Virus record (IMG/VR): IMGVR_UViG_3300017714_004386
Coordinates: 1-25,970 of that record
Source: a virus
Direction: 5' to 3' (one strand)
DNA: 25,970 nucleotides
Shown: positions 1-25,394 of the stretch, piece by piece
Layout of the letters: each line of letters starts with the position of its first letter
Position numbering within the stretch: position 1 is the stretch's first letter
The notes under the pieces: model-generated
Database searches by the model: none
What the model was told of the DNA's origin: nothing
Seen by the model: only the letters and a program-made list of their open reading frames with translations
Made by a program: the position numbers and the translations under genes

Positions 1-372
1 AATAGTATCCTTTTCCAATATTCTGACAAGCTTAATTTGGTTGATTTCGCAAAAATACTCTTTTTTCTCATCCCTCTGTAATTGAGAAAGAAAATTTTGC
101 CTAGAATTTGAGTGGAAAAATTTATTGTACTTATAGTGCTGGTTACCATCCACCTCTATTGCGAGCTTTTTATTCGCGTTGTAAAAATCTAATGTCATTC
201 TTGTCCCAAGAACAGGAAGCTCCTCAAAAACAATATCGGAAACCCAATTTGAATATAAAAGATCCTTAACTTTCTTTTGAAGCTTACTGCGACACTTTTT
301 GTCCCAATCGATTAAGTACTTACTAGAATTCTTGAGCTTTTGTTCTCGACCAGTTGTCGTTAAAAAGATCAT
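1..372 (-). CDS. PD-(D/E)XK-type endonuclease-like protein, truncated by window edge
   Basis: The reading frame starts at an ATG overlapping the recombinase stop codon (ATGA at 372-369) and stays open for 124 codons to the left edge, so the C-terminus lies outside the window. The core around residues 58-83 has a hydrophobic strand with Asp62 (MTLDFY), then KLAIEVDG with Glu73 and Asp75, then a GNQHY turn with Gln78-His79. This D...E-x-D-G-x-Q-H arrangement is typical of Vsr/DUF559-like members of the PD-(D/E)XK nuclease superfamily. The N-terminal 50 residues are basic and lysine-rich, which would suit DNA contact. Coupling to a UvsX-like gene suggests a role in recombination, repair or DNA processing; this is inference. 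It could also be a mobile-type endonuclease. The nuclease fold is fairly sure; the specific role is not. Confidence 0.7.
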   Translation of the reverse strand, partial: MIFLTTTGREQKLKNSSKYLIDWDKKCRSKLQKKVKDLLYSNWVSDIVFEELPVLGTRMTLDFYNANKKLAIEVDGNQHYKYNKFFHSNSRQNFLSQLQRDEKKEYFCEINQIKLVRILEKDTI

Positions 373-1496
373 GCAAAAATGTTTTCAGCAATAAATAAGT
401 GCATAGCCTTTGTAACCTCTTCATTAGTCTCTAAGAGATCATACAAAGATTTCATTCCTTGATACTTCTCTTGAAGTTCAATGCCCCTGTCGGCAAGATA
501 TTTTATCAATTCCTCATCAAACTTAAACCAAGAAGCTGACTTCTCAATAAAGTTCCACATTAGTAGCATTTCAATAATCTCACGCTCAATCCAAATAGAC
601 TTTCCATCAGATCTACCATGCTTAATTGGATAGCGGATACGCATCCCTGTGCTCTCATTAGTAGACTTTTGGATATGAACCTTGGCGTAATGCCCAATGA
701 TTGGATTCTCTGGGCTTGGCCTTGCTTTTTGGTCTTGCAAGATCAAGTCGGCCTGATTTCTCTTTTCGAAGTTAATAATCCAGTCTGGATAGTGAAGTGC
801 TGCATTGCCACCGCTAGAATTAGTTTGGTTGTTTGGATCACTAGCTGCATACTGACTCGTCTTAATAGTTGACCGAACCTGAGAGATCATAATACACATA
901 TGACCAAATTTACCCATCCCAAGACTAACTCGCTTTAAGAAGTCTGAAGTGAGAGAAGCACCTGCTGCAACTTTCGCTGCATCACTAGTAGTCTTCTCTA
1001 GATCAGATTTAGGAAGCAAGCCATCCATACTGTCGATGACAATGCAAAATCTTTCTTTATCTGGATTATTCCTTAGCAATTCTCTAAGGCCATCAAAAAC
1101 TGTATCATAAATATTACACTCCCAGACAAGACAAGTTCCTAACTCCCAATCATCTGGATTACTTACAAATTTCAATCCAGAACGCTTTTGGATGTCTGCT
1201 GATAGGCGACCCTCCGCCTTAATATAAAGACCCTTGGTTTTCTCTACTGTCTCAAGCATGTTCTTCATAACATGTAGAGCCTCGTTTGTTTTACCTCCTT
1301 CATTACAGCCGATAAAACGCTGCAACCCAGCTCCAAGACCACCACCAATAAACTGGTCTAAAATCAAAGAGCCAGTGGAGACTATATAAGTCTTTGCAGT
1401 CTCTTCATAGTTATAATGAAAATCTTTGTTACTCTTAAAAAACTTCGACATAAATTGCGAAGTGCCGATTGTTTCTTTTGTATTTTTCTTACTCAT
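369..1496 (-). CDS. uvsX: UvsX/RecA-like recombinase
   Basis: At 375 residues this is within the usual size of RecA/UvsX strand-exchange ATPases, which coat single-stranded DNA and pair it with a homologous duplex. Visible motifs are Walker A GCNEGGKT at residues 63-70, a strand ending in AEG with Glu95 at the place of the RecA catalytic glutamate, Walker B-like CIVIDS at 151-156, and ISQVR at 204-208 matching the start of the RecA L2 DNA-binding loop. The Ser/Asn-rich stretch near 215-232 fits that loop. The N-terminus is short and the C-terminus lacks a RecA-like acidic tail. The start overlaps the upstream zinc-ribbon gene by 8 nt and the stop forms an ATGA overlap with the nuclease gene, so the three are probably co-translated. 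The family is secure; UvsX versus bacterial-type RecA is decided mainly by phage context. Confidence 0.88.
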   Translation of the reverse strand: MSKKNTKETIGTSQFMSKFFKSNKDFHYNYEETAKTYIVSTGSLILDQFIGGGLGAGLQRFIGCNEGGKTNEALHVMKNMLETVEKTKGLYIKAEGRLSADIQKRSGLKFVSNPDDWELGTCLVWECNIYDTVFDGLRELLRNNPDKERFCIVIDSMDGLLPKSDLEKTTSDAAKVAAGASLTSDFLKRVSLGMGKFGHMCIMISQVRSTIKTSQYAASDPNNQTNSSGGNAALHYPDWIINFEKRNQADLILQDQKARPSPENPIIGHYAKVHIQKSTNESTGMRIRYPIKHGRSDGKSIWIEREIIEMLLMWNFIEKSASWFKFDEELIKYLADRGIELQEKYQGMKSLYDLLETNEEVTKAMHLFIAENIFA

Positions 1497-1935
1497 CTAA
1501 AAAATCTCTCAGGGTTTTTCTTTTTTCGATCAATATATCTTCTCCGAATTTAAGCTTATGGTCAACCATTTTTTCGGAGTTTTTCGGCTTGTAGTAAAAT
1601 TCTCTAAGCTTCTTGTCTAAGTATTTTAATCCATCTTTGGTTAAAAAATATTTTATTGACCCATCAAACTTAAATGGAGGCTTGACCTTTAATAAAAAAT
1701 CAACGTCATTTTCAAAGCGCTTGAATAACTTCGTCGCTGTAATCATGTCCAGCTTATAATTTATTGAAGGCTGATTGTTCAGCATCTTCTTTATAAACTG
1801 CTGCCTCTCTCTGAAATAAGTAGGCTTTTTTGGCGTTTTTTTATGGTTTTTAAATACAAAACCACACTCACACTCTAAAGCTCTGCTAGAACATAAAGCA
1901 GAACACTTTGGACATTCCTTTTTACCCCTTGGCAT
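1489..1935 (-). CDS. Zinc-ribbon protein of unknown function
   Basis: A 148-residue protein with an N-terminal zinc ribbon: CPKC at residues 8-11, further cysteines at 15, 22 and 24, and a C-x-C-G knuckle. After a basic linker (about 30-45) comes a helical, lysine-rich domain with no motif I recognise. Such proteins usually bind nucleic acid or act as adaptors, but no function can be assigned. It sits 9 nt downstream of the GDP-mannose dehydratase gene and overlaps the recombinase start by 8 nt. It could therefore be the last gene of the glycan run or, more likely from its zinc ribbon, belong with the recombinase and nuclease. There is no Shine-Dalgarno sequence before the ATG. Confidence 0.75.
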   Translation of the reverse strand: MPRGKKECPKCSALCSSRALECECGFVFKNHKKTPKKPTYFRERQQFIKKMLNNQPSINYKLDMITATKLFKRFENDVDFLLKVKPPFKFDGSIKYFLTKDGLKYLDKKLREFYYKPKNSEKMVDHKLKFGEDILIEKRKTLRDFLDE

Positions 1936-1944
1936 AAAGGTATG

Positions 1945-2973
1945 CTAACATGACTTCATATCGTTTGCAACCATTTTTCTCACCAAACCTAAAAAATTTG
2001 TTTTTGGAGACCAACCCAGCTCTCTTCTAGCTAAATCAGAATCTCCTAAAAGCAAGTCTACTTCAGCGGGACGATAAAAAGCTGGGCTAATCTGAACTAA
2101 GATCTGATCTTCATGGTAATACTTCTCGTTAACACTATAGCCCTCCCATCGACACTTTTCTTTAGCAAATCCTGCGAAGTTAAAAGCCTCCTCAACAAAT
2201 TCTCTAATCGAGTGCGTCTCGTCTGAAGATAGGACGTATTCTTTTGGACTCTCTTGGTTAAGCATCAGCCAAACACCATGAACGAAGTCTTCTGCATCAC
2301 TCCAATCTCGCTTTGCATCCACATTTCCTAACTCAATAGGCTTAAAATCACCGATAGGGTATTCTTTTTGAATACGAGCTACATTTTTGGTGATCTTACG
2401 AGTTACAAACTCTTCTCCGCGACGAGTTCCTTCGTGGTTGAATAACCATCCTTGAATAGCAAATAAATTGTAAGAGTCTCTCCATACTTTTACCATGTGC
2501 CTCGCACTAGCCTTAGAAACACCATAAGGGCTTCTTGGCCGCAATGGGTGAAGTTCTGCCTGTGGAGAATACAAAACGTCTCCAAACTCCTCTGAGGAGC
2601 CAGCATTATAATAATGGCATTTAGGACAATGTTTGCGAATTGCCTCAAGCTGATACATTACAGCCATAGCGTTTGTGTTCATATGGTTTGCTGGTTGAGT
2701 CCAACTAACACCCACAAAAGAATTCGCTGCGAAATTAATAAAATAATCTGGCTTCTCTCTAGCGATAACATCTTCTACATTCACAGAGTCAGTAATATCC
2801 AAATCAATAAGTCTGAATCGTGGATGATTAACTAAATGCGAAATATTGTCATGGTTCTTAACACTTAACCTACGAATACCAGCGATAATAGTATGTTCAG
2901 TATTTTTTAATAGATAGTCAGCCATGAAGCTGCCATCTTGACCCGTTACTCCTGTAATAATAACTTTTTTCAT
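1945..2973 (-). CDS. gmd: GDP-mannose 4,6-dehydratase
   Basis: This 342-residue short-chain dehydrogenase matches GMD over its whole length. The enzyme converts GDP-D-mannose to GDP-4-keto-6-deoxy-D-mannose, the branch point to GDP-fucose, GDP-rhamnose, GDP-perosamine and related sugars. The NADP-binding glycine motif GVTGQDG is at residues 8-14, the catalytic serine/glutamate region GSSEEFG at 125-131, and the YGVSK signature (Tyr150, Lys154) follows. GMD-specific elements include NHEGTRRGEEFVTRK and the C-terminal RPAEVDLLLGD block. The start overlaps the GDPD-like stop as ATGA. No reductase (GMER/fcl), 4-reductase (Rmd) or aminotransferase is in the window, so the final sugar must come from host enzymes or phage genes elsewhere. 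Confidence 0.95.
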   Translation of the reverse strand: MKKVIITGVTGQDGSFMADYLLKNTEHTIIAGIRRLSVKNHDNISHLVNHPRFRLIDLDITDSVNVEDVIAREKPDYFINFAANSFVGVSWTQPANHMNTNAMAVMYQLEAIRKHCPKCHYYNAGSSEEFGDVLYSPQAELHPLRPRSPYGVSKASARHMVKVWRDSYNLFAIQGWLFNHEGTRRGEEFVTRKITKNVARIQKEYPIGDFKPIELGNVDAKRDWSDAEDFVHGVWLMLNQESPKEYVLSSDETHSIREFVEEAFNFAGFAKEKCRWEGYSVNEKYYHEDQILVQISPAFYRPAEVDLLLGDSDLARRELGWSPKTNFLGLVRKMVANDMKSC

Positions 2974-3383
2974 ATAATATAATCACTACAAACTCCAAAG
3001 CAGTCATAGTTTTTAGACTGCCAATTTGAATTATTATCAACAATTACTGATTTCTCAACAACAAGTTTATTAGGAAAAGTCCAAATAAAGTTTTTTGATG
3101 TCAAGGTATAAGAGTCTCTGTCATGCCAAAAATAATTTTGTTTGTCAGTACAAGCATTTAAAGCATCTAAATTTTTGCAGTGAATCCAAAGACCCTCTTG
3201 ATCTAAAAAAGCAGGGTGAATGCAATATTCTGGGATGTCATGCCCCAGATAAAACCTACCAAATTCATACCACAGATCTATTTCACAATCATACCCTAGA
3301 TCCAAAACTTTTTTAATTTGGGCTGGGTGATTTTCTGAATCAGATGGACCATTTAAATTACCCCTATGAGATATGAGCTTCAT
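2970..3383 (-). CDS. Short GDPD-like (glycerophosphodiester phosphodiesterase-fold) protein
   Basis: At 137 residues this is about half the length of usual glycerophosphodiester phosphodiesterases, yet it keeps the active-site pattern of the family: HRGN at residues 6-9, SENHP with Glu17, CEIDLW with Glu34 and Asp36, and LGHD with His48. GDPD enzymes hydrolyse glycerophosphodiesters to glycerol-3-phosphate and an alcohol using a metal ion. Here it is embedded in a glycan operon, overlapping the phosphatase/nucleotidyltransferase fusion by 20 nt and gmd by 4 nt (ATGA). A role in making or trimming a phosphodiester-linked sugar or glycerol phosphate would fit, but this is inference. The missing second half of the TIM barrel means it may need a partner or may act on another phosphodiester. 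Confidence 0.75.
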   Translation of the reverse strand: MKLISHRGNLNGPSDSENHPAQIKKVLDLGYDCEIDLWYEFGRFYLGHDIPEYCIHPAFLDQEGLWIHCKNLDALNACTDKQNYFWHDRDSYTLTSKNFIWTFPNKLVVEKSVIVDNNSNWQSKNYDCFGVCSDYII

Positions 3384-4740
3384 TATTTATTTTGGATAAA
3401 TAAATGTTTAGATCTTCTGGAGTGCCTAAGCCCCACATCGCGTTAGCTTCAAATGAAGATATCTTCAGTCCAGATTCTATGGCTTGATTAAAAACAGGAC
3501 AAACGTAAAACTCGTTATTTACACGAACATCTTTCTCTATCATTTGCTCCGCATATTTGACAAAATCAGACCCTTTCCTCCAGTAATAGTATCCTACTGT
3601 AGCATTGTCTGAAATAGGTTTTTTTTCAGCGACCTCTTCTACAAACCCAAATTCATTTAACTTAGCAAAAGACCATTTAGGATGAGTGGATTTAAAAGTC
3701 AATATCCCTCCATCAGAATTTGTTTCCTGCATTTTATAAAGGAATTCACTACTATTCCATTCCGCTACCTGATCTGAGTTCGCAAAAAATAAAGGAGCGT
3801 CATTATCAATATGTTCTTTAGCTAGTAAAGCAGAACACGCTGCACCTTCAGTAATCCCGTCTACCTCAACAATTTTACAATCTGGAGTAATTAAGTTCAG
3901 AAGAGAGTCTAAGTTATATTTAGTTCTATGCGACTTCTGAACGATATAGATATAGTTTGCTTCAATATTCAAATTATCTACAACAACTTGAATCATCGGC
4001 TTCTTGTTAACTTCAATGAGAGGTTTTGGAAAAGTATATCCAGCTTGCTCAAATCTACTTCCAGCACCTGCCATAGGAATAAGCACATTCATTTTCTTAT
4101 TTACCCATTTTGGAGAATATTCGGTCATTTTACTTCTTGTGTCTTTTGTTAGTTTATCATAAGAAATATCTTTAGGTGATTCAACTCTAAAAATATTTGC
4201 TCCACTTAATTCTGCTGCCAGTAAACCAGCAGGAGAATCTTCAACAACTAATGTTTGTTTCGGGTTTACTGAAAAATTAGACATAGCCTTCCAATACATT
4301 TCTGGATGAGGTTTGCCGTTTTTTACATCTTCGTTAGAAACGATGTAATCGAAAAAAGAAATAATGCCTAATCTTGAGAGAATTGTTAACACGGACTTCC
4401 TGATACTATTAGAACAGCAAGCTATCTTATAGCCATCTTGAGATAACTTACTCAAGCAATCTATAAGGTCTTGATTTGGTTCAATACTTGACAGGTAATC
4501 TAAAGTTACTCTTTGTTTGTCTTCCCAAACTTTAGAATGAAGTTCTATGGGGAGACCCTTATTCTGACTAAGTAGTTCAAGTTTTCTTGTTGTTTTAAGC
4601 CCATCATAAATAGACAAGTGCTCGGATAAAGATATTTTGTATTCCTCACCAAGAGCCTTATTAAGAGCTTTGAAATGAAACTCTTTTGTTTCAATCAACA
4701 CTCCATCCAAATCAAAGGCTATCAACTTAACTTCGCTCAT
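3364..4740 (-). CDS. Fusion of HAD phosphatase and sugar nucleotidyltransferase
   Basis: Two enzymes in one 458-residue chain. Residues 1-210 are a HAD hydrolase of the beta-phosphoglucomutase/phosphatase type: DLDGV with nucleophile Asp10 and Asp12, the CCSNS motif near 108-112, GKPHPE with Lys143, and VVEDSP with Glu167-Asp168. From Met217 a second domain begins with the nucleotidyltransferase signature GAGSRF (about 225-230) and FPKP with Lys239, followed by an NSDQ motif; these proteins form NDP-sugars from sugar 1-phosphates. The sugar could be a hexose or heptose but cannot be read from the sequence. An in-frame ATG at 4092 could in principle start the second domain alone. The gene has an ATGA overlap with the WavE-like gene and a 20-nt overlap with the GDPD-like gene. 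Confidence 0.88.
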   Translation of the reverse strand: MSEVKLIAFDLDGVLIETKEFHFKALNKALGEEYKISLSEHLSIYDGLKTTRKLELLSQNKGLPIELHSKVWEDKQRVTLDYLSSIEPNQDLIDCLSKLSQDGYKIACCSNSIRKSVLTILSRLGIISFFDYIVSNEDVKNGKPHPEMYWKAMSNFSVNPKQTLVVEDSPAGLLAAELSGANIFRVESPKDISYDKLTKDTRSKMTEYSPKWVNKKMNVLIPMAGAGSRFEQAGYTFPKPLIEVNKKPMIQVVVDNLNIEANYIYIVQKSHRTKYNLDSLLNLITPDCKIVEVDGITEGAACSALLAKEHIDNDAPLFFANSDQVAEWNSSEFLYKMQETNSDGGILTFKSTHPKWSFAKLNEFGFVEEVAEKKPISDNATVGYYYWRKGSDFVKYAEQMIEKDVRVNNEFYVCPVFNQAIESGLKISSFEANAMWGLGTPEDLNIYLSKINNEAHIS

Positions 4741-5402
4741 TTCTTAGGGAAGGCTTCATTACCATGAATTGTAATATTAGCATTTTCAGACATGTTACAA
4801 TTATATTTAATGCAATGTATATCTAGCGACCCCTCTACTAAATCAACATTAATAAAACTCATTCTATCAATCATTTCTTCATAAGTCCAGCCATGCTTGT
4901 CCATCATAGAGTAACACAACTGAGTTTCTGGAGAATTAAAATTCGGCCCTTCTTGTTTATACGACCAAAAATCTAGAGCATATTCATAACTGCTAAAGGT
5001 CACAAAATCATGTATTTCATGTATACCGGGTTTGTAATTTAAATAAGAACATAAAGAATCTTCTTTAAGCATTTTCTCAAAAGCTAATTTTATTAAGTCC
5101 TTTTGGTTCGTCCACAATAAGTCGCCTCTTACTTTAACTATCCAAGGCTTGTTTATTGATTTTACCCCTAGTTCAGAACTTAAGCATTGCATATTAATAT
5201 TCCTAAATCCATTAAACTTCGGCTTATCATTTAATAATATAGGAATTTTTTCTCCAATATTCTTTATATTATCTATTGGCTCATCACCCCAAGTAGACCA
5301 GACATAAGAAAAGTCTTCGTCAATATTCTCAAGAACTCTTTCATAGCAATCTGTTGGGCCTTGAATGACTATTCCAACATCATTTAAATTAAACTTCTTC
5401 AT
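4737..5402 (-). CDS. WavE-like putative glycosyltransferase
   Basis: This 221-residue protein opens with a short strand and IQGP (residues 13-16). It later carries a strand ending in VKVRGD (89-94), with Arg92 and Asp94 placed like the acidic donor-binding site of nucleotide-sugar transferases. The IVIQGP start, the asparagine/glutamine-rich helix near 68-77 and the K-x-R-x-D motif resemble the WavE family involved in lipopolysaccharide core synthesis. The exact reaction is not established for this family. It is coupled by ATGA overlaps to the GT2 gene before and the phosphatase/nucleotidyltransferase fusion after. There are no membrane segments, so it is probably cytosolic. Confidence 0.6.
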   Translation of the reverse strand: MKKFNLNDVGIVIQGPTDCYERVLENIDEDFSYVWSTWGDEPIDNIKNIGEKIPILLNDKPKFNGFRNINMQCLSSELGVKSINKPWIVKVRGDLLWTNQKDLIKLAFEKMLKEDSLCSYLNYKPGIHEIHDFVTFSSYEYALDFWSYKQEGPNFNSPETQLCYSMMDKHGWTYEEMIDRMSFINVDLVEGSLDIHCIKYNCNMSENANITIHGNEAFPKK

Positions 5403-6004
5403 ATCTTATCGTATAATTTATTTTGTTTCTTTTGCTTCTCTATATCTTTAACATGAAGAATACTAAACATCTGGTCTATTTTAGCTTGTCCACCAGAACG
5501 GAATCCCCTTGGGGTTTCATGCACCTTACCCTCCCACCTAATGTGGCCTTGAGTAGACATAAATCTTAATTGATAGTCTGGATAACCTTCCCAACCCATC
5601 TCATTAATTTGCCAATTAAAATTTTCAATATCTTTTTGTGTAGTACCTCTAACCACATTAATCCGAGGGACAGCAAACAAATCATATTGACATGAATCAG
5701 CTACATTCCTAATTAAATTTAAAAGACTAAACGGAATTTGCTCATCAGCATCTATTTGGAATAAAAAAGGCTTAGTAGAATGTTTAAATAATTCATTTTT
5801 AAATTCTGCAAAATCGTTTTGAAAATCAAAATACTTTAAAGTTAGTCCAACGTATTCACAAAAATCTTGTATTTCCTCAGTGACTTTATTCTTGTCTGCT
5901 AAAACAATAATTTCTTCATCTTGTAAAATATAAGGCTCAAGTGAATTAATTAATCTTTTAAATTCAAAAAACTCATCTGCTACGGTTATTCCATAAGTAA
6001 TCAT
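5399..6004 (-). CDS. GT2-type glycosyltransferase
   Basis: A 201-residue GT-A fold enzyme. The first half has the alternating strand and helix pattern of family 2 transferases, ending in FQIDADEQIP with the metal-binding DAD motif at residues 85-87. A later segment, WEGYPDYQLRFM and RWEGKVHE (about 138-162), is typical of glycosyltransferases of the SunS/WaaE-like type. It probably transfers one sugar from a nucleotide donor to a glycan or protein in the cytosol; donor and acceptor are unknown. The protein is shorter than most GT2 enzymes and has no membrane helix. ATGA overlaps join it to the FkbM gene upstream and the WavE-like gene downstream. Confidence 0.8.
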   Translation of the reverse strand: MITYGITVADEFFEFKRLINSLEPYILQDEEIIVLADKNKVTEEIQDFCEYVGLTLKYFDFQNDFAEFKNELFKHSTKPFLFQIDADEQIPFSLLNLIRNVADSCQYDLFAVPRINVVRGTTQKDIENFNWQINEMGWEGYPDYQLRFMSTQGHIRWEGKVHETPRGFRSGGQAKIDQMFSILHVKDIEKQKKQNKLYDKI

Positions 6005-6585
6005 TTCTCACAAATTATATTATATTCTTCCGTGCGGAACTCTTTAAATCCTAACTGTTTAAGGTAATAAATTAAGCTATTCAACTTAGGTCCACCTTTA
6101 GAGAAAGTGCCATCACTATGAATTGCTTCAAAAATAATTTTACTAATGTTTTTGAAGTGGTCTTGGTTTAAACTAAATAAGTTCATAACGTCTAATCCTT
6201 CAGTATCAATCGAGAGTATGGTGGTTTCATTATATTTTTCTAATAAATTAGACATGCTAATTGTCTCGGTAGAAATTTTAACTATCTCTTTATCTATGTC
6301 ATGTATCTGAGTAAAACTTTTATTAATAGAAGCACTTTGGGAAAGTTCTTCGTCCTCTGGTAAATAAAAATTTATTTTATAATCTTCACAACTTATTGGT
6401 AAAACAGCGAAACATTCAAAATAACAGTTATCAAATTTTTGATACCTCTTCCTAGCCTCAATTAAACATTTAGGATTAGCATCAACTAAAACTATAGAGT
6501 CAATTGAATTGAAATTTTGCTGACAGAATTTGTAAACATGGTCGTCACCATCATTACATCCTATGTGTAAAACATTAAACTTCAT
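6001..6585 (-). CDS. FkbM-family SAM-dependent methyltransferase
   Basis: At 194 residues this is a compact FkbM-type methyltransferase. The SAM-binding loop HIGCNDGDD is at residues 7-15, the acidic end of the second strand is Asp35 in VLVDANP, and the family signature SIDTEGLD is at 125-132. FkbM enzymes O-methylate sugars or polyketides. As first gene of the glycan run it likely methylates a hydroxyl of the glycan or its precursor. The start codon is chosen by the strongest Shine-Dalgarno in the window, AAGGAG with a six-T spacer, which lies inside the 3' arm of a terminator hairpin. Translation may therefore be controlled by folding. The stop overlaps the GT2 start as ATGA. Confidence 0.85.
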   Translation of the reverse strand: MKFNVLHIGCNDGDDHVYKFCQQNFNSIDSIVLVDANPKCLIEARKRYQKFDNCYFECFAVLPISCEDYKINFYLPEDEELSQSASINKSFTQIHDIDKEIVKISTETISMSNLLEKYNETTILSIDTEGLDVMNLFSLNQDHFKNISKIIFEAIHSDGTFSKGGPKLNSLIYYLKQLGFKEFRTEEYNIICEK

Positions 6586-6622
6586 AAAAAACTCCTTCTA
6601 GGTAAGCACAACCTAGAAGGAG
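6586..6622 (-). terminator. Hairpin terminator overlapping the FkbM ribosome-binding site
   Basis: A perfect 12-bp stem (6592-6603 with 6611-6622) encloses a 7-nt loop. On the minus strand it is followed directly by six T residues (6591-6586), the form of a rho-independent terminator for the hsp20 transcript. The AAGGAG in its distal arm is the Shine-Dalgarno of the next gene, whose ATG follows the T-run immediately. The hairpin can therefore both end transcription and hide the ribosome-binding site. Confidence 0.85.
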
Positions 6623-6644
6623 CGATATAAGTCTCTTCGAAGTT

Positions 6645-7109
6645 TTACTTAACTTCAATCATTATGTCTTTTTTCTCCTCTTTTTCAAGAGGTATTTTGA
6701 CTCTCAGTAGGCCATTTTTATATTCTGCCTGAATGGAGTCTTTATCAACGTTCTGGTGCAAGGTAAAGTGCTTCTTGACAGATCGTCGAGATATTTTTCT
6801 ATGGTAGAATTCAGCATCATCATCTTTTTGCTGAGATCCCGCCTCAATCTTTAAGGTTTGGCCAGATACAGATACAGAAATATCTTCCTGATCTAATCCC
6901 ACCAATGCAAACTCAAGAATAAAATTCTCATCCTTGTCTTTATAAGCATCAAAAGGCTCTGAGCCGGAATACAATGGAGCGTTAGCTTCATTAGCTAACA
7001 ACTGCATCCGCTTAAAGATATCTCCCTCGAAAACCAAGGGAGCCAACATTTTGTTTATCATCATTGTCATACTACTATTTTTAGTTAGTTTTTGTTTTTC
7101 TAGCCCCAT
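6645..7109 (-). CDS. hsp20: Hsp20/alpha-crystallin small heat-shock protein
   Basis: At 154 residues this has the normal length and layout of a small heat-shock protein: a variable N-terminal arm, then an alpha-crystallin domain from about residue 50. Diagnostic elements are FALVGLDQEDISV at 67-79, the SRRSVKKHFTL strand near 98-107 and the AEYKNGLLRVKIP block (A-x-x-x-G-L-L) at 118-130. The canonical C-terminal I-x-I tail is weak or absent (IMIEVK). Such ATP-independent chaperones hold unfolding proteins and occur in many aquatic T4-like phages, where a role in capsid folding or host stress has been proposed. It lies between the RNR genes and a strong terminator. Neither the first ATG nor Met14 has a Shine-Dalgarno, so the true start could be either. 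Confidence 0.92.
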   Translation of the reverse strand: MGLEKQKLTKNSSMTMMINKMLAPLVFEGDIFKRMQLLANEANAPLYSGSEPFDAYKDKDENFILEFALVGLDQEDISVSVSGQTLKIEAGSQQKDDDAEFYHRKISRRSVKKHFTLHQNVDKDSIQAEYKNGLLRVKIPLEKEEKKDIMIEVK

Positions 7110-10181: not shown

Positions 10182-10772
10182 ATGGACTTTCAAAATGCCA
10201 CAGACCCAGAATTAACTGACTTAATCAAAGAAAAAGATAACGAGGATGCTCTGAATCTACTGATTGAGAGACATTCTGGAATATATGTTGACATAGTTAA
10301 GAAATATGGATCTAAATCTTTGCCAAATACCGATATATATGACATTATCTCTGATAAAGATTATATTATCTATAAGGCCGCTTTAGACTATGATGAAAAC
10401 AAAGCTAAATTCTCTACGCATGTAGGGAATAAAGCTAAATACTTGTGTTTAAGTAAAAAAACATTAAGCAAAAAAAACAAAAGAATGATACCTTTCGATT
10501 CTATCGATTACTCCGAACAATCAAAAGAACTCCATCCTGATGAGAAATGTGAAATAAGTGAAAATTTTTCGTCCATAATGAAACTAATAAATGATCACCC
10601 CGATAATAGAGTTAAGACCATTTTCAAACAAAGATACTTTGGTGGAGAAAGAGGAAAGCTTAGTACTTGGAAAAATATTGGCGATAATATAGGACTATCT
10701 GCTCAAGGATGCATAAACATCCACGACAAAACACTAATAGAATTCCAGAAACAAATTAAAAAAAATGCATGA
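10182..10772 (+). CDS. Phage RNA polymerase sigma factor, late-sigma-like
   Basis: This 196-residue protein has the reduced sigma layout of an N-terminal region 2 and a C-terminal region 4. Residues 23-42 (ALNLLIERHSGIYVDIVKKY) match the first helices of region 2. Residues 51-90 (IYDIISDKDYIIYKAALDYD, then KAKFSTHVGNKAKYL) carry the core-binding and -10 recognition pattern. Residues 159-188 form a helix-turn-helix like region 4. Size and pattern resemble T4 gp55-type sigma factors that direct late transcription. It is the first gene of the plus-strand block and overlaps the following glycosyltransferase by 8 nt. Virion genes in the window may be its targets, but no convincing common late promoter was found. 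Confidence 0.8.
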   Translation: MDFQNATDPELTDLIKEKDNEDALNLLIERHSGIYVDIVKKYGSKSLPNTDIYDIISDKDYIIYKAALDYDENKAKFSTHVGNKAKYLCLSKKTLSKKNKRMIPFDSIDYSEQSKELHPDEKCEISENFSSIMKLINDHPDNRVKTIFKQRYFGGERGKLSTWKNIGDNIGLSAQGCINIHDKTLIEFQKQIKKNA

Positions 10773-11847
10773 ATTGAATTTAGACGCACCATTTAACTCG
10801 TTAAGCTTGGGGAATGTATCCTTAAACTTCTTCAGAGAACTTGTAAAAAAAGATTTAAAATTAAATGTTTTTCCAATGGGAAAGCCTGATTTCTCTGCTT
10901 TCGATAAAATGAGTCAAGAGGAGATGGATTCATACAAAGAGGATTCCGAGAATTCTTTGAAAAACCTTAATAGAGAAATACCCACTTTAAGGATTTGGCA
11001 CATCAACGGTGCTGAGAAAAAAATCGGAGATCGCCAGTTTTTATATACATTCTACGAAGTAGATAGCCCGACAGAAGAAGAGATAGCAATTGTTAAATCT
11101 CAAGAGCATGTTTTCTTTTCTTGTTCAGAAGCTGCTGAAATTTTTAAAAGCAAAGGGTGCGATAATGTTTCGTATGTCCCACTTGGTTTCGATCCAGATT
11201 TTCATAAGACGGACAAGGAATACCTTGGTGATGATGTGATTCATTTTGGACTTATTGGAAAAATGGAGCGCAGAAAGAATACCCAAGCTTTGATCCAACT
11301 ATGGTGTAATAAATTCGGGAATAACCCAAGATTCCAGCTAACTTGTTTGGTGGGTAATCCATTTGTTAAACAAGAACAGATGAATAAATCGATTGCTCAG
11401 GCGATGAATAATCAAAAATATTCAAATGTAAATTTTTTGTCCCGACTAAAAACAAATAGTGAAGTTAATGAATTAATTAATTCAATCGATATTGACTTAT
11501 CTGGACTCTCAAACGGAGAAGGTTGGAACCTTCCAGCATTCAATGCGACAGCTCTTGGCAAGTGGTCTATAGTTAGTAACTGTAGCTCGCACAAAGATTG
11601 GTCCAATAATAATAACGCAATTCTAGTCGATCCGAAAGGCAAACAACCATGCTATGATAATATGTTCTTTGTAGAAGGGTCTAAGTTCAACCAAGGCGAA
11701 TATTACCTTCTAAATGGATCAGAAATTAATTCTGCAATGGATACAGCTTGCCAAATGGCTAAATCTGAAAATACAGAAGGACTAAAACTTCAACAGAAAT
11801 TTACATACGAAAAAACTGTTGAAAAAATCCTAGAAAAAATCTACTAA
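10765..11847 (+). CDS. GT4-like (GT-B fold) glycosyltransferase
   Basis: A 360-residue GT-B type protein. The N-terminal half (1-160) has weak Rossmann features with YTFYEVDSP and YVPLGFDPDFH. The C-terminal half holds the donor site: HFGLIGKMERRKNTQALI near residues 160-180 and NGEGWNLPAFNATALGK near 250-267. In GT4 enzymes this last motif usually carries two glutamates eight residues apart; here Glu252 is kept but the second position is Asn260. This may alter donor choice or activity. It overlaps the sigma gene by 8 nt and is followed after 1 nt by the FmdB-like gene. A sigma factor coupled with a glycosyltransferase is an unexpected pairing. Confidence 0.82.
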   Translation: MHELNLDAPFNSLSLGNVSLNFFRELVKKDLKLNVFPMGKPDFSAFDKMSQEEMDSYKEDSENSLKNLNREIPTLRIWHINGAEKKIGDRQFLYTFYEVDSPTEEEIAIVKSQEHVFFSCSEAAEIFKSKGCDNVSYVPLGFDPDFHKTDKEYLGDDVIHFGLIGKMERRKNTQALIQLWCNKFGNNPRFQLTCLVGNPFVKQEQMNKSIAQAMNNQKYSNVNFLSRLKTNSEVNELINSIDIDLSGLSNGEGWNLPAFNATALGKWSIVSNCSSHKDWSNNNNAILVDPKGKQPCYDNMFFVEGSKFNQGEYYLLNGSEINSAMDTACQMAKSENTEGLKLQQKFTYEKTVEKILEKIY

Positions 11848-13295: not shown

Positions 13296-13877
13296 ATGAA
13301 ATTCACACTTTACAAGCCAAATGCCAAAAATACTGGATCAGCATTCACTTTTGATTGCACTAAAGATAGAAATGGTAATCCAGTTCTTTTCGTCTCCATG
13401 ATTCTTCAGTATGGCTGGAATGATGAACGTAAAACAGGCTCCTTTAAGGAAAACGCCAAGAATCCAGATAAATCCACTACAATTAAGCTCACAGACATTG
13501 AAGCTGGAGAGTTCCTATCCTCAATTAAAACTCGGATTCCATTCTTGGGTTTTCATAAAACAGAAGAAAAAACAACAATTATCAAGTTTACCCCTTGGGA
13601 TAAGAATCGAATTATCAAAAATAAAGATGGTCAAGAGACATTTAAATCACCAGCTTGGGGTCTTACGGTTACAAAAAATTCCTCTCAATTCTTTAAGCTG
13701 CCAATCGAAGCTGGAGAGTCTGAATGCCTAGCTGTTTTGCTTGAAGGGTATATTAAACAGAGTCTGACTGCTAAGTCAGAGGCTTATAAACAAGACCAGC
13801 CACAAAAAACTTATAAAAAACCTGCCCCTAAAGCGCCCGTAGTTGAGGATGAAGACGATGATGATGTCCCATTCTAA
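13296..13877 (+). CDS. ssb: Single-stranded DNA-binding protein
   Basis: A 193-residue protein with a beta-rich, basic and aromatic N-terminal domain (about 1-155), a Lys/Pro/Ala linker (about 165-182) and a sharply acidic end EDEDDDDVPF. This end matches the partner-binding DDDIPF tail of bacterial SSB and resembles the acidic tails of phage SSBs such as T7 gp2.5 and T4 gp32. It probably coats single-stranded DNA during replication and recombination, working with the UvsX-like protein. I cannot tell an OB fold from a PC4/Whirly-like fold by eye. The codons for the acidic tail also contain the start codons of the next gene. No Shine-Dalgarno precedes the ATG. Confidence 0.8.
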   Translation: MKFTLYKPNAKNTGSAFTFDCTKDRNGNPVLFVSMILQYGWNDERKTGSFKENAKNPDKSTTIKLTDIEAGEFLSSIKTRIPFLGFHKTEEKTTIIKFTPWDKNRIIKNKDGQETFKSPAWGLTVTKNSSQFFKLPIEAGESECLAVLLEGYIKQSLTAKSEAYKQDQPQKTYKKPAPKAPVVEDEDDDDVPF

Positions 13878-15570
13878 AATTAAAGTATTAGTCCAATCTA
13901 ACTATTCCCGTATGGTGACGGGCTTCGGGAAGAATATGAAGAACATTCTTCTCGCTCTTTATGATGATCCAGACATTGAAGTTATAGAAGCTGCGAATGG
14001 AGTCCCTTATGGAAGAGATATTCACACCCCTTGGGAGTCTTATGGAACATACCCTTCAGATCAAAATACGCTAAGTGTTATAGAAAAAGACCCAGCAAAA
14101 AAAAGAGCAGCTCAATACGGGTTTTATACAATTGATAAAATTGTAGAAAAAGTAAAACCAGATGTATTTTTAGGGATTGAAGACGTTTGGGCTTTCAGGG
14201 AATACGAAAAGAAATCTTGGTGGTCTAAAACAAAAAAGATTATTTGGACAACCTTAGATAGCTTACCTATTTTAGATCAGGCTGTCGAAATGGAGCCAAA
14301 ATGTGACCAAATGTTGGTTTGGGCTAGCTTCGCTGAAAAGGCAATGAAAGAGCTTGGCCATGAAACAGTAGAGACTGTTCACGGAGCTGTAGACTACAGT
14401 CACTTTAAACCTCTTGATAATAGGGGAGAGCTGCGGAAACTTCACGGTCTTCAAGAAGACTTCGTAATTGGATTTGTTTTTAAAAACCAACTAAGAAAGT
14501 CTGTACCAAATCTACTTGAAGGATTTAAAAAATTCAAAGCAAATAATCCGAAGGTTTCAGCCAAACTTTTACTCCATACAGATTGGGGGGAAAAGAGTAT
14601 GGGATGGGATATCCCAAGATATCTAAAAGAAAAAGATCTTGAAGACGGTAGCGTCTTGGCAACTTATGTGTGCCATAAATGCGATGATTACTTTATTCAA
14701 CCATATTCTGGGGAAGACAAAGATTGCTCTTCTTGCGGTTCTAAAAAATCTGTAAAAACCAAAAATAGCGGTAAAGGGGTGGGAGAAAAAGAGTTAAATG
14801 AAATATACAACATGATGGATGTTTACTGTCATCCATTTACAAGTGGAGGTCAGGAGCTTCCAATTCAAGAAGCTAAAGCTGCTGGTCTCATTACTCTTGT
14901 TACAGACTACTCTTGTGGTACTGACTCCGCATATGAGCATCAAGGTGGGATTCCCTTATCTTGGAATGAGTATAGAGAACCAAGCACTCAGTTTATTAAA
15001 GCTACCACATGTCCAGATAATATTTGCGAGAGACTACAACAAGTTTACGAGATGGATACAGAGTCTAAATCTAAACTTATTGAAACTTCCAAGAAATATG
15101 TTCAAGAGGAGTTTTCGGTTCAAAACACGGTAAACAAATTAAAGAGTTTTATAAAATCAGTTGAATTAAGGATAAAAAAAGAAAAGGAAGAAGAGTCAAA
15201 AGACTCTAATCCAAAAATAGAAGACTTTATAAAAGACATTCCTCTAAAAGACAGAATTGCTGTTGTCTTGCCAAGGTCAGCTGGAGATGTATTAATGGCA
15301 AACTCTCTAATGGAAAACCTACAAAACCTCTACCCCGACAAAAAAATATTTTTTGTCACCCAGCCAGAATTTTACGACCTTATTAATGACAACCCTTTCG
15401 TTCATAAAGTTCTTCCTTATTCAAAGTCATTTGAAAACTTACACGCTCTTGAAGGCAGGGGGGACCACAAAGGTCTTTTCGATATAGCTTTTCTCCCTCA
15501 CTGTATGACACAGAAAACGTACAGCTATAATCATAACGGAAAAGATAAAACTCAATTTAGATTAAGATGA
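13858..15570 (+). CDS. GT4 glycosyltransferase fused to N-terminal half of a GT9 (heptosyltransferase-like) domain
   Basis: Residues 1 to about 430 are a GT-B enzyme: SNYSRMVTGFGKN at the N-terminus, a donor-binding region with FVFKNQLRKS, and ELPIQEAKAAG with Glu338. A C-x2-C...C-x2-C zinc ribbon (Cys272, 275, 290, 293) is inserted in the donor domain. After a charged linker, residues about 465-570 look like the first Rossmann domain of GT9 heptosyltransferases (RIAVVLPRSAGDVLMANSL). The chain then stops at an ATGA overlap with a gene encoding the matching second half. The frame could start at TTG 13843 or ATGs at 13849, 13858, 13861 or 13864. I prefer 13858 because GAGG lies 9 nt upstream. 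The product is probably cytosolic. Confidence 0.8.
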   Translation: MMMSHSKIKVLVQSNYSRMVTGFGKNMKNILLALYDDPDIEVIEAANGVPYGRDIHTPWESYGTYPSDQNTLSVIEKDPAKKRAAQYGFYTIDKIVEKVKPDVFLGIEDVWAFREYEKKSWWSKTKKIIWTTLDSLPILDQAVEMEPKCDQMLVWASFAEKAMKELGHETVETVHGAVDYSHFKPLDNRGELRKLHGLQEDFVIGFVFKNQLRKSVPNLLEGFKKFKANNPKVSAKLLLHTDWGEKSMGWDIPRYLKEKDLEDGSVLATYVCHKCDDYFIQPYSGEDKDCSSCGSKKSVKTKNSGKGVGEKELNEIYNMMDVYCHPFTSGGQELPIQEAKAAGLITLVTDYSCGTDSAYEHQGGIPLSWNEYREPSTQFIKATTCPDNICERLQQVYEMDTESKSKLIETSKKYVQEEFSVQNTVNKLKSFIKSVELRIKKEKEEESKDSNPKIEDFIKDIPLKDRIAVVLPRSAGDVLMANSLMENLQNLYPDKKIFFVTQPEFYDLINDNPFVHKVLPYSKSFENLHALEGRGDHKGLFDIAFLPHCMTQKTYSYNHNGKDKTQFRLR

Positions 15571-16676
15571 GCCACTTAGTAGAAGTTTACGCAAAGGATT
15601 TGGGGGTTAAAATTGGCAAACCGTATTTCCAACCTCATTTCTTTCCTATTCTTGAAGAGAATTATATTACTATCCACAATGATAATAAAGTTCAATCCAA
15701 AGAATACGATTATTGGGAAGAGGTTATTTCTTTAGTTAAGCAACAAGCTCCAGATATTAAGTTCATTCAGGTAGGCTCTGGAAAAGAACCAAAAATAAAA
15801 AATGTTACGAAGTTTGCTGCTACCCACAGTATCAAACAATCTGCTTACATTATTAAGAATGCACTAATGCATGTTGGTACAGACAGTTTGCCAGTTCATA
15901 TCGCGTCATCGTTTGATAAACCAATTGTTTCCATCTACGCTCATACATATGCTTCCACTTGTTGTCCTGTCTGGGGGGCCAAAAAGAATCATACAATGAT
16001 TGAGTCCCATAGAGACGGCAAGAAACCATCTTACTCCTTAAAAGAGCATCCCAAACAAATCAACTTGATCAAACCAGAAGAAATAGCGAATGCTATTCTA
16101 AAAAAATTAAGTAAAAAGAAAATCTCTAGAAAAACAATTTTCATTGGCGACAAATATAAGGAAAATTTAATTCATGTCATACCAGATAATAAATATTCAT
16201 TGTCTAACAAGAAGGTGGTTCTTAGATTTGATTTACTGCATAACGAAGAAAATACCCTTCATCTATTCAAAGATAATCAAGTATCAATTGTCACAAGCAA
16301 ACCTTTGGCAGATGAAATTCTAAGTCAAAGAAACATTGACTGCATTAATTATTTATCTGATAACTTTGATGCAGAATTTATTGAACGAACAAAAAAGAAA
16401 GGCATCGCCTTACGTTTGTTTTGCACAAAAGAGGAATTCCTCAATGAACAGAGACATAAATTTTTTGACATACAGATCCCCCTAATTAACGAAGCAAAAA
16501 AAATAGAGGAAGCAAAAAAAATAGTTACACTCCCGAAAAAGAACTTTAAAATAAAATCTTACACAATTTTTTTCAAAAACGGGGAAGCGTATCACTCTCT
16601 TTTTGAAGCCAATGGAAAAGAAAATTTAGATGATATTTTTATTGACTTAGAGAAACTCATGCTTTATACTGATTGA
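15567..16676 (+). CDS. GT9 (heptosyltransferase-like) C-terminal half with extra domain
   Basis: This 369-residue protein begins where a GT9 enzyme would be in mid-chain. Residues 1-180 contain the second Rossmann domain with a strand giving FIQVGSG and the nucleotide-sugar signature ALMHVGTDSLPVHIASSF around 99-116 (Asp106), then PIVSIYAHTYASTC. This matches the C-terminal half of heptosyltransferases; the N-terminal half is at the end of the preceding gene. Residues 185-369 form a further alpha/beta domain that I do not recognise. A lysine-rich EAKKI repeat is encoded at 16491-16526. The two genes share an ATGA overlap, so they are likely made in equal amounts and may assemble into one active site. 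Confidence 0.75.
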   Translation: MSHLVEVYAKDLGVKIGKPYFQPHFFPILEENYITIHNDNKVQSKEYDYWEEVISLVKQQAPDIKFIQVGSGKEPKIKNVTKFAATHSIKQSAYIIKNALMHVGTDSLPVHIASSFDKPIVSIYAHTYASTCCPVWGAKKNHTMIESHRDGKKPSYSLKEHPKQINLIKPEEIANAILKKLSKKKISRKTIFIGDKYKENLIHVIPDNKYSLSNKKVVLRFDLLHNEENTLHLFKDNQVSIVTSKPLADEILSQRNIDCINYLSDNFDAEFIERTKKKGIALRLFCTKEEFLNEQRHKFFDIQIPLINEAKKIEEAKKIVTLPKKNFKIKSYTIFFKNGEAYHSLFEANGKENLDDIFIDLEKLMLYTD

Positions 16677-16677
16677 A

Positions 16678-17451
16678 ATGAGTGATAAAAAGATTTACGG
16701 ACCCGACCTTTACAAGCGTAATGAGCATGGACTTTTAGAAAATGCGAAATATGAATTTAACGAGGACGGCTCTGTAGATTGGAGAGCTATGATTAAGTCG
16801 GAGTTTCTCTATCCAAATAAAGGATGGTTCGAAGCTCGCAAAAAAGATGTGCCTACCTCTCCAGAAGGATTGGATGATAAACAACTTTTAATTATGTTGG
16901 GGGGGATTAAAGAGTTAGCTCGTCTCCGGGGATTTGAAGGCGTTTCATTTGAAACTAGTCATCTTAGCGACACTTATGTTGTGGCTACTTGTGAAATCGT
17001 TTGGTCTCCCAACTATGAAAGCAATAAGGAGCGAATTGTCTACCAAGATGTTGCTAATGCTACACTTCAAAATACAGGGTCTTTCGCAGCAAAGTTCTTA
17101 GAAACTATTGCTTGTAATAGAGCTTTTGTAAGATGTGTCCGTAACTTTCTAAACATTCATATTGTTGGAGCTGATGAGATAGACAAATCAAAAGATTCTG
17201 TAAATTCATTTTCAGTAGAAGCATCTAGCGATGAACCTTTGGAGAAAATTCTATCCCCTAACGCGAGACTATTCCAAGATTGGCAAGATCATGGTGGTGG
17301 AGGTGGAAATTTTAACGATTTCAAAGAAACTCTTCGATCCTTATGGAAGAAAGAAATTTATCAGAATGGGGATGCTCAAAATTGGAATGACTTCAATGAC
17401 GTTCCCGCCAAAGAAGCTCGCAAAATTAGGGCTGCACTTAAAAAATTATAA
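16678..17451 (+). CDS. Possible Rad52/Erf-like annealing protein
   Basis: This 257-residue protein has an N-terminal domain with an I-K-E-L-A-R-L-R-G-F helix (about 77-86), a strand VVATCEIVW (101-109) and a long helix ETIACNRAFVRCVRNFLNI (142-160). A strand followed by an E-T-x-A-x-x-R-A helix is reminiscent of single-strand annealing proteins of the Rad52/Erf/Sak group, which pair complementary strands. The resemblance is by eye and not diagnostic. A glycine run (206-210) separates a C-terminal helical part ending in a basic tail. It shares a plus-strand block with SSB, which supports a DNA role, although glycosyltransferases lie between. It ends in a 6-nt convergent overlap with the tail gene. 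It could equally be an unrelated phage protein. Confidence 0.35.
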   Translation: MSDKKIYGPDLYKRNEHGLLENAKYEFNEDGSVDWRAMIKSEFLYPNKGWFEARKKDVPTSPEGLDDKQLLIMLGGIKELARLRGFEGVSFETSHLSDTYVVATCEIVWSPNYESNKERIVYQDVANATLQNTGSFAAKFLETIACNRAFVRCVRNFLNIHIVGADEIDKSKDSVNSFSVEASSDEPLEKILSPNARLFQDWQDHGGGGGNFNDFKETLRSLWKKEIYQNGDAQNWNDFNDVPAKEARKIRAALKKL

Positions 17452-20007
17452 CCCCATGAAGTTCCTTTGACCAGCGGAGAATCCTACAAAATTCCTAGAT
17501 GTTGAAGCTTGGTCATTAGCAAGAATAACTTGTTCGTCAGGTCTGAGGATTTTAACCGCAGATTCATTAATAGTAGTTGTGATTCCAGACGATCCTAATT
17601 TTAAAGAAATGCCAGACATCTGTAGAGAAAATCTAGTTGGCAAAGATAATCCGACTATAGTCCTTGAAGAACTTTGCAATGGTGGTTGATTAGAAATACT
17701 CGCAGAAATTCCTGATTTTTTCAGACTCTTCACATTAGATAAGTTTAAGTTACTTATATTTAGTTGAGCTGGATGTAATGGGGAGCCATTAGCGCCATTT
17801 CTTTCGATTGAGTATTTTCTTAAATCAAACCTTTCGCTAAGTTCATCTAGCTTTTGTGCTCGCTCATCAAGAGCATCTCTCCTTTTTGCGGCCCTTTCTT
17901 GTTTCTTTTTTTCGTCCTCTGTTTCTGGTACGCTAACAGGTCTTTTTCCCCTGTTGTAAGTAGCCTTCATAGTATGCTCTTCAGTCACAAGGTCGTTAAA
18001 TAACTTCTTTGATTTCTCCATCATTTCTTTTATTTTAGTGACAAATGCAGGACTAACGGCCACAAACTGCCTCTCACTCTTCGGATGAATAAGTCCTTCT
18101 CCAGCTTTAGCTGGAGGGAAAAAAGCCTGTTCATCGCAAATCTCTTTCCATTTTAGATCTGTGGCCTCTAGATCCAGAGTACTTTTGTTGTTTTTGCTAT
18201 TAAAGCCAAAAAATACAAAATCACCACCTCCAACTGCGTCTTGTTTACCATCATCCCAAAAACCTCCGATTTTTAGTGCTTCAGGATCTTCCCCGTTTCT
18301 CTTGAAAGCCGTCCTAAGATTCTCAATTCCATCTGTTTCAGATAATTTTTGCTTTAGCTCAAATGGCCCTTCTATACTTAAAGGAGAGTTTTTAAACGCC
18401 ATTCTCGTTGCTTTCCAGCGACCAAATTTATTGGAAATATACAAACCACAAGTTATGGCATCAAAATAAACTTTTAACTTATCAAAAGCATCATTGTTAA
18501 AAATATCTTCGAACTTTTCCTTTATTGTAGCAGTTTTGTCGAAAAGAGGTATTAGATGTGCGTTTAAAAGGTCAAATTTGCCACACCTCATGTGCTTGTC
18601 TGCTTGTCCTGTATCCCTGAAAATCTTCTCATAAGTATCCCAATCGCCCTCTTTTGAGAGTTTAGTATAATCTGGCCAATCGTCACCCCACTTTAGATCA
18701 TGCGTTATTGTAGCTATATACGCATAAATAGAGAACAATTGGGATGATTGAAATTTATTAGAAGCATAAAGAATATAAAAATATTGCAATATTTCATGAT
18801 TAAAATCTAATCTTTTTATGAATTCTATAGGCTTCCATTTATGAAATCTTGTTAATCTGTCTCTATCTGGTATCTCGAAAGTAGTCTCGTTACGCTCAAT
18901 AGTTGAAGCATATACATCAACAATTTTTGGAGTTTTGAAATCAGTACTAATAGATCCACTAACATACTTGGATTTTAAAGAACCATCTTGTGTTAAAGGG
19001 TTGGTAACTTGAAACTGAGCGCTGTTGGCAGAATCAACCATAATAATTCGCCCAGCTGAAAATGGATCTGCATACCAATAATACCCAAATTTAGAAGCTA
19101 TGGAAGAAATAATACTATCTAAACTTCCAGATTCAGTTATTAATACAGATTCTGAACTAGGTAATCCAATAACACTTATCCCAACTAACCCGAAAATTGT
19201 TTGAACTTCTCTTAGGGTATAACCATATTTTAAATTATAATTAGCAAAATCTGGTTGCGATTTGTAAAAATGACCAACTTTATCAGAGTTGAAGCTTAAC
19301 TTTTCTTTTAACTGCCCGTTCTGATAAACTAGAGAAACTTTATCTCCGTCAAAAGCAATAGAGCTTTCTTCATTATATATATTCCCAGCATATATTAAAG
19401 CACCACTTTTAGTAGGCGCATTATAACCAAACTTAAGATTCGCTGAAACGGGAGAGCCAACCACTTCTCCAAAATAAGGGATGGTTATTCTATCACTTGT
19501 TTGATTAGCTGAAGCCCTTGCATTACGGCTCCCACTCCCAAAAATTGGTCTTTTTGGCAAGTTAACTGGTATATTTTCTCTTGAGACACAGCCACCAGAA
19601 GAATCACTATTACCAAGATTTACGTTAAAATTATTGGGTTGGAAAAATACGCCTCCTCCTTGACCACCTCTATATTTAGGATCAAAATCTCTACCCCGAA
19701 CAATTACAGCGTGAGATTTTAGCAACAAGTTCGTAGTATCTTCGTATGACCTCGATATTGCAGTGTGCCTTGCGTCTTGAGATACGGTTCTAGACACTTC
19801 AGTAAAATTACCAAGAATATTCTGTAATCTTTCATTTGTAAACGTTGTTACGCCTCCCCCTACCCCAATCAAAGATCCCAAATTCTCCTGAGTATCTGTT
19901 ACTAAATCTTTAGCGCCTTTTACCGAAGTAACAGTCGCAGTATGTCCTCCATTATTAGAGAAATTAATATCTAAAGAGGTGATTGTTTCGTTGCATCCAA
20001 TAGCCAT
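17446..20007 (-). CDS. Large virion/tail protein, possibly baseplate or tail tip
   Basis: At 853 residues this is the largest gene of the window. The N-terminal 150 residues are Ser/Thr/Gly-rich and beta-like. A middle part (about 200-360) has strands and TLREVQTIFG of the kind seen in tail-hub proteins. The centre (about 390-560) is aromatic and helical. A coiled coil rich in Glu, Lys and Arg spans about 695-733, and a Ser/Asn-rich tail follows. There is no enzyme motif. Its place at the 3' end of a run of structural genes suggests a tail-tip, hub or connector role, but no family is recognised with certainty. Six nucleotides separate it from the upstream 280-residue gene and no Shine-Dalgarno is seen. 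Confidence 0.6.
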   Translation of the reverse strand: MAIGCNETITSLDINFSNNGGHTATVTSVKGAKDLVTDTQENLGSLIGVGGGVTTFTNERLQNILGNFTEVSRTVSQDARHTAISRSYEDTTNLLLKSHAVIVRGRDFDPKYRGGQGGGVFFQPNNFNVNLGNSDSSGGCVSRENIPVNLPKRPIFGSGSRNARASANQTSDRITIPYFGEVVGSPVSANLKFGYNAPTKSGALIYAGNIYNEESSIAFDGDKVSLVYQNGQLKEKLSFNSDKVGHFYKSQPDFANYNLKYGYTLREVQTIFGLVGISVIGLPSSESVLITESGSLDSIISSIASKFGYYWYADPFSAGRIIMVDSANSAQFQVTNPLTQDGSLKSKYVSGSISTDFKTPKIVDVYASTIERNETTFEIPDRDRLTRFHKWKPIEFIKRLDFNHEILQYFYILYASNKFQSSQLFSIYAYIATITHDLKWGDDWPDYTKLSKEGDWDTYEKIFRDTGQADKHMRCGKFDLLNAHLIPLFDKTATIKEKFEDIFNNDAFDKLKVYFDAITCGLYISNKFGRWKATRMAFKNSPLSIEGPFELKQKLSETDGIENLRTAFKRNGEDPEALKIGGFWDDGKQDAVGGGDFVFFGFNSKNNKSTLDLEATDLKWKEICDEQAFFPPAKAGEGLIHPKSERQFVAVSPAFVTKIKEMMEKSKKLFNDLVTEEHTMKATYNRGKRPVSVPETEDEKKKQERAAKRRDALDERAQKLDELSERFDLRKYSIERNGANGSPLHPAQLNISNLNLSNVKSLKKSGISASISNQPPLQSSSRTIVGLSLPTRFSLQMSGISLKLGSSGITTTINESAVKILRPDEQVILANDQASTSRNFVGFSAGQRNFMGL

Positions 20008-20013
20008 TATAAA

Positions 20014-23830: not shown

Positions 23831-23831
23831 G

Positions 23832-25379: not shown

Positions 25380-25394
25380 ATAAATATTTTTAAA

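Follow-up and report, generated by a model that had tools for sequence, protein, structure and literature searches.

Bacterial O-antigen-type serotype loci hold fixed flanks around an interior of sugar genes that is swapped, and the PeSLs of T4-type phages are mobile regulatory cassettes with a stem-loop at the borders of swapped gene blocks. Among phages, variable islands rich in glycosyltransferases and sugar-nucleotide enzymes and set between conserved flanks are already known from the hypervariable host-recognition cluster of pelagimyophages and the LPS clusters of cyanomyophages, as is the idea that they remodel surfaces; the authors of those studies favour envelope (surface) modification (PMC7029224, PMC2984593). 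The marine-phage island reported there spans ~45 kb in a structural region with tail fibres and is described as gradually diverging (PMC7029224, PMC2984593). Virion glycosylation, too, is already known in other viruses (PMC4691112, PMC12619734). Chlorovirus PBCV-1 encodes a GDP-mannose 4,6-dehydratase (GMD) and glycosyltransferases, and bears a methylated 6-deoxysugar on its capsid protein (PMC4691112); in mycobacteriophages, which grow on an unrelated host, both the capsid and the tail tube are glycosylated (Freeman et al. 2023, as cited in PMC12619734).

The locus described here lies in a 25,970-bp virus record, the whole of which was analysed and is called the window below. In an uncultured lineage of aquatic phages it forms a slot for exchangeable glycan-synthesis genes, with precise borders and swapped contents: 2.4-9 kb in size, it sits between nrdA/hsp20 and GMD/uvsX and is replaced at gene-start borders. 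Fixed flanks and a swapped interior liken it to O-antigen-type loci; the Wzx/Wzy-type flippase and polymerase and the initiating transferase were not found here, and the cassette is thus not an intact host O-antigen pathway. To our knowledge, PBCV-1 has no exchange slot, and mycobacteriophage glycosylation no comparable multi-gene nucleotide-sugar pathway. PBCV-1 further differs in being a eukaryotic virus with other GT families and in having a glycan that was solved experimentally, whereas the present one is known from genes alone (PMC4691112). What characterizes the hypervariable islands of marine phages is a block of glycan genes whose content changes strongly from one syntenic phage to another, and such a block is what we found. 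The sequence-only reading of this DNA, which saw in the cassette the main candidate for an undescribed system, was therefore too strong as to kind, because hypervariable glycan-gene islands of marine phages have been published (PMC7029224, PMC2984593). Our literature search found no earlier account, for this lineage, of a compact slot whose borders stay fixed at start codons while its entire content is replaced.

The cassette of the window (1945-6585) consists of six intact minus-strand ORFs, in the order FkbM methyltransferase, GT2, WavE-like, HAD phosphatase–nucleotidyltransferase (HAD-NTase) fusion, compact GDPD and GMD (Table 1). Successive ORFs overlap by 4, 4, 4, 20 and 4 nt; the 20-nt overlap is that of HAD-NTase and GDPD, and ATGA forms the 4-nt overlap at the other four junctions. 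Coordinates, order, strand and junctions all reproduce those of the sequence-only reading, and the names that it gave to the genes stand, supported by Pfam, structure and profile comparison. Purifying selection acts on all six genes (dN/dS 0.05-0.15 in a comparison of the window with one relative, L002), which argues that they are real. Their tight coupling is ordinary for the clade, where 4-nt overlaps also occur at 82 of 258 junctions in comparable interiors. Among the matches listed, the exact six-gene order recurs in one other contig only, L002. The order is not unique to the window's genome, but with only one other contig sharing it we reject the six genes as one conserved system; relatives with near-identical flanks hold unrelated glycan genes in the same slot. 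Of the cassette as first proposed, what holds is a phage glycan cassette with a conserved HAD-NTase and GDPD sub-pathway inside it; the fixed set of six does not.

Table 1. Features of the cassette, its borders and its flanks in the window.
Feature	Position	Strand	Evidence or remark
Exchanged interior, FkbM to GDPD	2974-6585	-	in most near relatives, either lacking as a whole or similar only in places
Hsp20, conserved left flank	6645-7109	-	Pfam 2e-19; kept in many relatives
Left-border hairpin, 13 bp, followed by a T run	6591-6623	-	z-score -6.1
FkbM-family SAM methyltransferase, first cassette gene	6001-6585	-	Pfam PF05050 2.5e-5
GT2-type glycosyltransferase	5399-6004	-	Pfam PF00535 1.5e-4, just under cut-off
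WavE-like glycosyltransferase	4737-5402	-	hhalign to bacterial WavE proteins 98.8%
HAD (beta-phosphoglucomutase-like) and nucleotidyltransferase fusion	3364-4740	-	HAD_2 1.7e-30, NTP_transferase 7e-9
Compact GDPD-superfamily protein, 137 aa	2970-3383	-	AlphaFold pLDDT 95.8; Foldseek to GDPD 1v8e
GMD, right border gene of the slot	1945-2973	-	PF16363 4.3e-101
UvsX-like recombinase (369-1496) and small conserved protein (1489-1935), right flank	369-1935	-	phrog_97; conserved beside GMD

The borders of the slot are sharp. By blastn, DNA homology to relatives breaks off at the start codon of GMD (2973-2980) and picks up again at that of the first cassette gene (6564-6582). Both breaks were seen in L217, L218, L220, L222, L223, L228, L234 and L236 (in L228 homology restarts at 6645), and the right-hand break is present in L219, L221 and L224, whose contigs do not reach hsp20. 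Between the breaks, L218, L223, L228 and L236 hold no DNA alignable to the window; L217, L220, L222 and L234 share with it only the GT2, at 67-71% identity. The left border comprises hsp20 and a hairpin with a ribosome-binding site, and the right border GMD followed by uvsX. Across 42 loci there are 32 distinct interior gene sets drawn from 101 families, 49 of which occur in a single locus only. The interior ORFs (n=300) are closely packed on one strand, with a GC content of 29-35%; that of the flanks is mostly 34-44%. L218 and L222 illustrate the exchange: their uvsX genes are 99.4% identical, and their interiors have a Jaccard index of 0.11. In the aligned block that includes their GMD, identity is 74-92% for the initial ~1.2 kb and 98-100% from there on, apart from one 96% bin, and the jump is located near the end of GMD. 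The genes between the borders are presumably replaced by homologous recombination in the flanks. L226 and L229 retain GT2-WavE and GDPD-GMD, with a KdsC-like HAD, a PfkB-like kinase, an NTase-RpiB fusion and a cupin in place of HAD-NTase; thus, modules within the cassette also swap. The loci L301 and L308 are the two ends of one 118,005-bp contig and hold different cassettes in the same slot. Their flanks are 92% identical, which points to two co-assembled strains or a chimera; judged by this contig, the genome unit would measure roughly 113 kb.

The Shine-Dalgarno sequence of the first cassette gene, AGGAG (6592-6596), lies within the 3' arm of the left-border hairpin. This hairpin is kept in relatives with different first genes, directly before them, and paired (compensatory) changes preserve its stem in L223, L248 and L249. 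When viral contigs were scanned for its exact pattern, every match followed hsp20 apart from one (L305), whose contig ends before hsp20. A repeated mobile element was considered and rejected, the hairpin being present in a single copy in the window; it differs from PeSLs in this respect, in overlapping a ribosome-binding site and in being tied to one slot. Our reading is that of a terminator overlapping a ribosome-binding site. Late transcripts of T4 gene e lose the 5' arm of such a structure, a parallel that makes the hairpin a candidate for late unmasking. Directly before it, at 6624-6640 (-), is a TTATATC string, conserved in the slot loci that have this hairpin and found in one further copy in the window, upstream of 10182; it could be a promoter element with its start site in the 5' arm of the hairpin.

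The individual assignments differ in strength. The FkbM protein matches TIGR01444 (1.7e-7) under its curated cut-off. The GT2, with DADE and WEGKVHE motifs, matches TIGR04195 (5e-7), also below cut-off, and its closest solved relative is SunS, a protein S-glycosyltransferase (PDB 7msp, 1.4e-6); against the curated SunS peptide S-glycosyltransferase equivalog it scores 28.9 bits where 350 are required, and it would appear to be a distant SunS relative only. The WavE-like protein has no direct Pfam match to WavE (PF07507), and one bacterial protein in the WavE group matched by hhalign is itself a Pfam WavE match. A fold search gave it a GT-A-like fold, and it carries the motifs IQGPT...STW...KxRxD. 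It was also considered as a Stealth/LicD phosphotransferase, a candidate rejected because the fold search ranked GT-A-like glycosyltransferases and nucleotidyltransferases highest. All catalytic motifs of the HAD-NTase fusion are intact and its catalytic residues invariant in 39 homologues, including D10, D12, H22, K75, K143, E167 and D168 of the HAD domain; that domain matches beta-PGM TIGR02009 at 2.7e-28 and 99.4 bits, against a curated cut-off of 153.35.

The compact GDPD has no Pfam match. The best Foldseek matches of its structure are GDPDs (E 6e-4, TM about 0.5), and the HR, E-x-D and HD residues (H6, R7, E34, D36, H48 and D49) are invariant in 41 homologues. With these catalytic residues on a predicted GDPD fold, the protein probably belongs to the superfamily. 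The segment that canonically reads E-x-K and supplies the third metal-binding glutamate reads HCK by our by-eye assignment, with H68 and K70 invariant. A domain of BFVD A0A3G5A5B5, a Homavirus (giant virus) protein annotated as FkbM methyltransferase, matches the compact GDPD with TM 0.89 and 39% identity, and the protein is thus an apparent FkbM-GDPD fusion. The PF16363 match of GMD covers 332 of 332 positions and is full-length; TIGR01472 gives 8.4e-94 and 314.5 bits, under the curated 415. Some cyanophages hold heptose-type genes (annotated as GHMP kinase, NTase and isomerase). We rejected a GDP-heptose pathway for this allele, given that heptose-type genes are absent here and that GMD is far nearer to mannose than to heptose dehydratases.

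From these domains a pathway can be proposed. HAD-NTase would turn a sugar phosphate into a nucleotide-sugar, its HAD part acting as a phosphatase or, more speculatively, as a beta-PGM-like mutase that shifts phosphate to C1. Sister cassettes have a phosphatase and a kinase in place of the HAD domain, and the HAD may thus perform a net move of phosphate, as a mutase would; a plain phosphatase is as consistent. GMD would yield GDP-4-keto-6-deoxymannose. The cassette holds no separate 4-keto reductase; the GMD of PBCV-1 illustrates that an enzyme of this type can also reduce GDP-4-keto-6-deoxymannose (PMC4691112). GT2 and the WavE-like enzyme may add sugars in the cytoplasm, FkbM may cap the glycan by methylation, and the compact GDPD may make or trim a phosphodiester-containing intermediate. 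A methylated 6-deoxysugar is, given GMD and FkbM, a plausible product.

The real functional core of the cassette is the NTase and GDPD pair, which occurs in hundreds of viral contigs. Among the best 80 of at least 600 HAD-NTase matches, the protein is 64-77% identical across viral loci (95% in one), and 56 of these 80 loci have a GDPD no more than about 8 kb away. Conversely, 76 of 80 GDPD-anchored viral loci, some of them near-duplicates, have an NTase or HAD-NTase near, and all 16 phage records with a GDPD are Synechococcus phages in which the NTase is also present. Four distinct interiors have both HAD-NTase/NTase and GDPD, none has one alone and 28 have neither (p 2.8e-5, ignoring relatedness). 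In the HAD-NTase tree the members from viral contigs form one clade (support 100/100), which includes three MAG-labelled sequences; the cyanophage copies fall outside it. One of the three, L092 (JABXKB010000009.1), was binned as Lokiarchaeota. It is a phage relative with the same gene order, likely a misbinned or infecting virus, and was set aside as a cellular source for that reason. Cellular sequences have the pair as well: in SAR11 and Patescibacteria it adjoins WavE-type proteins, and it is also present in SAR86 and Poseidoniales (archaea). Legionella and relatives (L096, L097, L100, L101, L111 and L132) have LicD adjoining HAD-NTase between apparently unrelated genes, with no GDPD nearby. 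In other phages (L029, L032, L047, L054, L056, L062, L069, L078 and L081), tail sheath and tube genes follow 0.8-3.2 kb downstream of HAD-NTase, and GDPD is also present in most of these nine. A literature search of incomplete coverage found nothing on the couple and no description of its function. HAD-NTase and GDPD are thus a widespread couple for which we found no assigned product, and finding that product would allow a glycan pathway common in aquatic environments to be annotated.

What the glycan is attached to can be argued from what surrounds the genes. Multi-spanning membrane proteins (≥4 TM segments) number 0 of 300 interior proteins in a simple hydropathy scan and 1 of the 1456 proteins encoded near viral HAD-NTases; SAR11 loci, in contrast, have several. 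Fifteen clade contigs, themselves incomplete, gave no match to flippase or initiating-transferase families (PF13440, PF02397), and none, over about 1.2 Mb, to the thymidylate synthase/dCMP-hydroxymethylase family (PF00303). Together these absences favour an acceptor in the cytoplasm, for which a virion protein is the simplest candidate, and the similarity of GT2 to SunS, which glycosylates a peptide, leads in the same direction. We therefore favour an exchangeable slot with "serotype" cassettes that direct cytoplasmic glycosylation of a predicted virion-protein acceptor, over envelope remodelling and DNA modification, and give this reading about an even chance of being right. The occurrence of HAD-NTase, mostly with GDPD, near tail genes in nine other contigs supports it. 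Against it, the product could reach the envelope by way of the host's export machinery, the SunS similarity may reflect the GT-A fold only, and the WavE-like and FkbM families also serve bacterial surface polysaccharides. If glycosylation of virion proteins is correct, cassette exchange would alter the sugar coat of the virion; such swapping would be a phage version of bacterial serotype switching, with a bearing on adsorption, particle protection and the coexistence of near-identical phages. A more elaborate form, in which a hairpin-bordered dedicated slot gives switchable virion "serotypes" and the cassette embodies an undescribed nucleotide-sugar route (a beta-PGM-like mutase–NTase fusion, together with a compact GDPD whose substrate is a sugar intermediate with a phosphodiester), we consider unlikely.

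The main competitor is a cassette whose products, passed to host lipid carriers and host export machinery, alter the envelope of the infected cell (LPS O-chain or capsule) and thereby block superinfection or grazing. This is the published interpretation of similar pelagimyophage and cyanophage islands (PMC7029224, PMC2984593). Genes for HAD-NTase, GDPD and WavE occur, besides, in glycan clusters of SAR11, SAR86 and archaea. The resemblance of GT2 to a protein glycosyltransferase argues otherwise, as does the lack in these islands of the multi-spanning flippase or polymerase and the initiating transferase of Gtr or Wzx/Wzy surface-glycan loci, export and membrane genes of the kind that serotype-converting prophages have. 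Envelope remodelling is therefore possible, on our estimate, rather than probable. Glycosylation of phage DNA bases, as in T4-like hypermodification, would account for a phage with soluble GTs and sugar-nucleotide enzymes, and T4 has DNA glucosyltransferases; the thymidylate-synthase-family hydroxymethylase of T4-type glucosylation is absent from the 15 clade contigs, and multi-gene sugar synthesis with rapid gene turnover is atypical of base glucosylation, which makes this very improbable. We give equally little credence to the interior as a landing site for unrelated genes without common function. The very high turnover would fit random cargo, but the window interior consists wholly of glycan-type genes, several recurrent families elsewhere are glycosyltransferases, methyltransferases and nucleotide-sugar enzymes, all 300 interior ORFs share one strand in close packing, and the dN/dS values are low (0.05-0.15).

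The window UvsX is at most about 25% identical to that of any phage in the collection searched, which marks the lineage as uncultured. We take it to be one of aquatic phages with no close cultured relative, judging by sequence; the label "T4-like" is not established. A search with GMD showed it adjoining uvsX in many relatives, and where contigs are long enough nrdB-nrdA(-hsp20) lies on the opposite side of the slot. At 17446-25970 (-), six consecutive proteins have no PHROG match; they are probably structural components of a virion type about which little is known. On its plus strand the window carries another group of soluble glycosyltransferases, of which two are GT1-like and one is GT9-like (10765-11847, 13843-15570 and 15567-16676), in which GT1a and its neighbours, unlike the swapped interior, are conserved in the clade.
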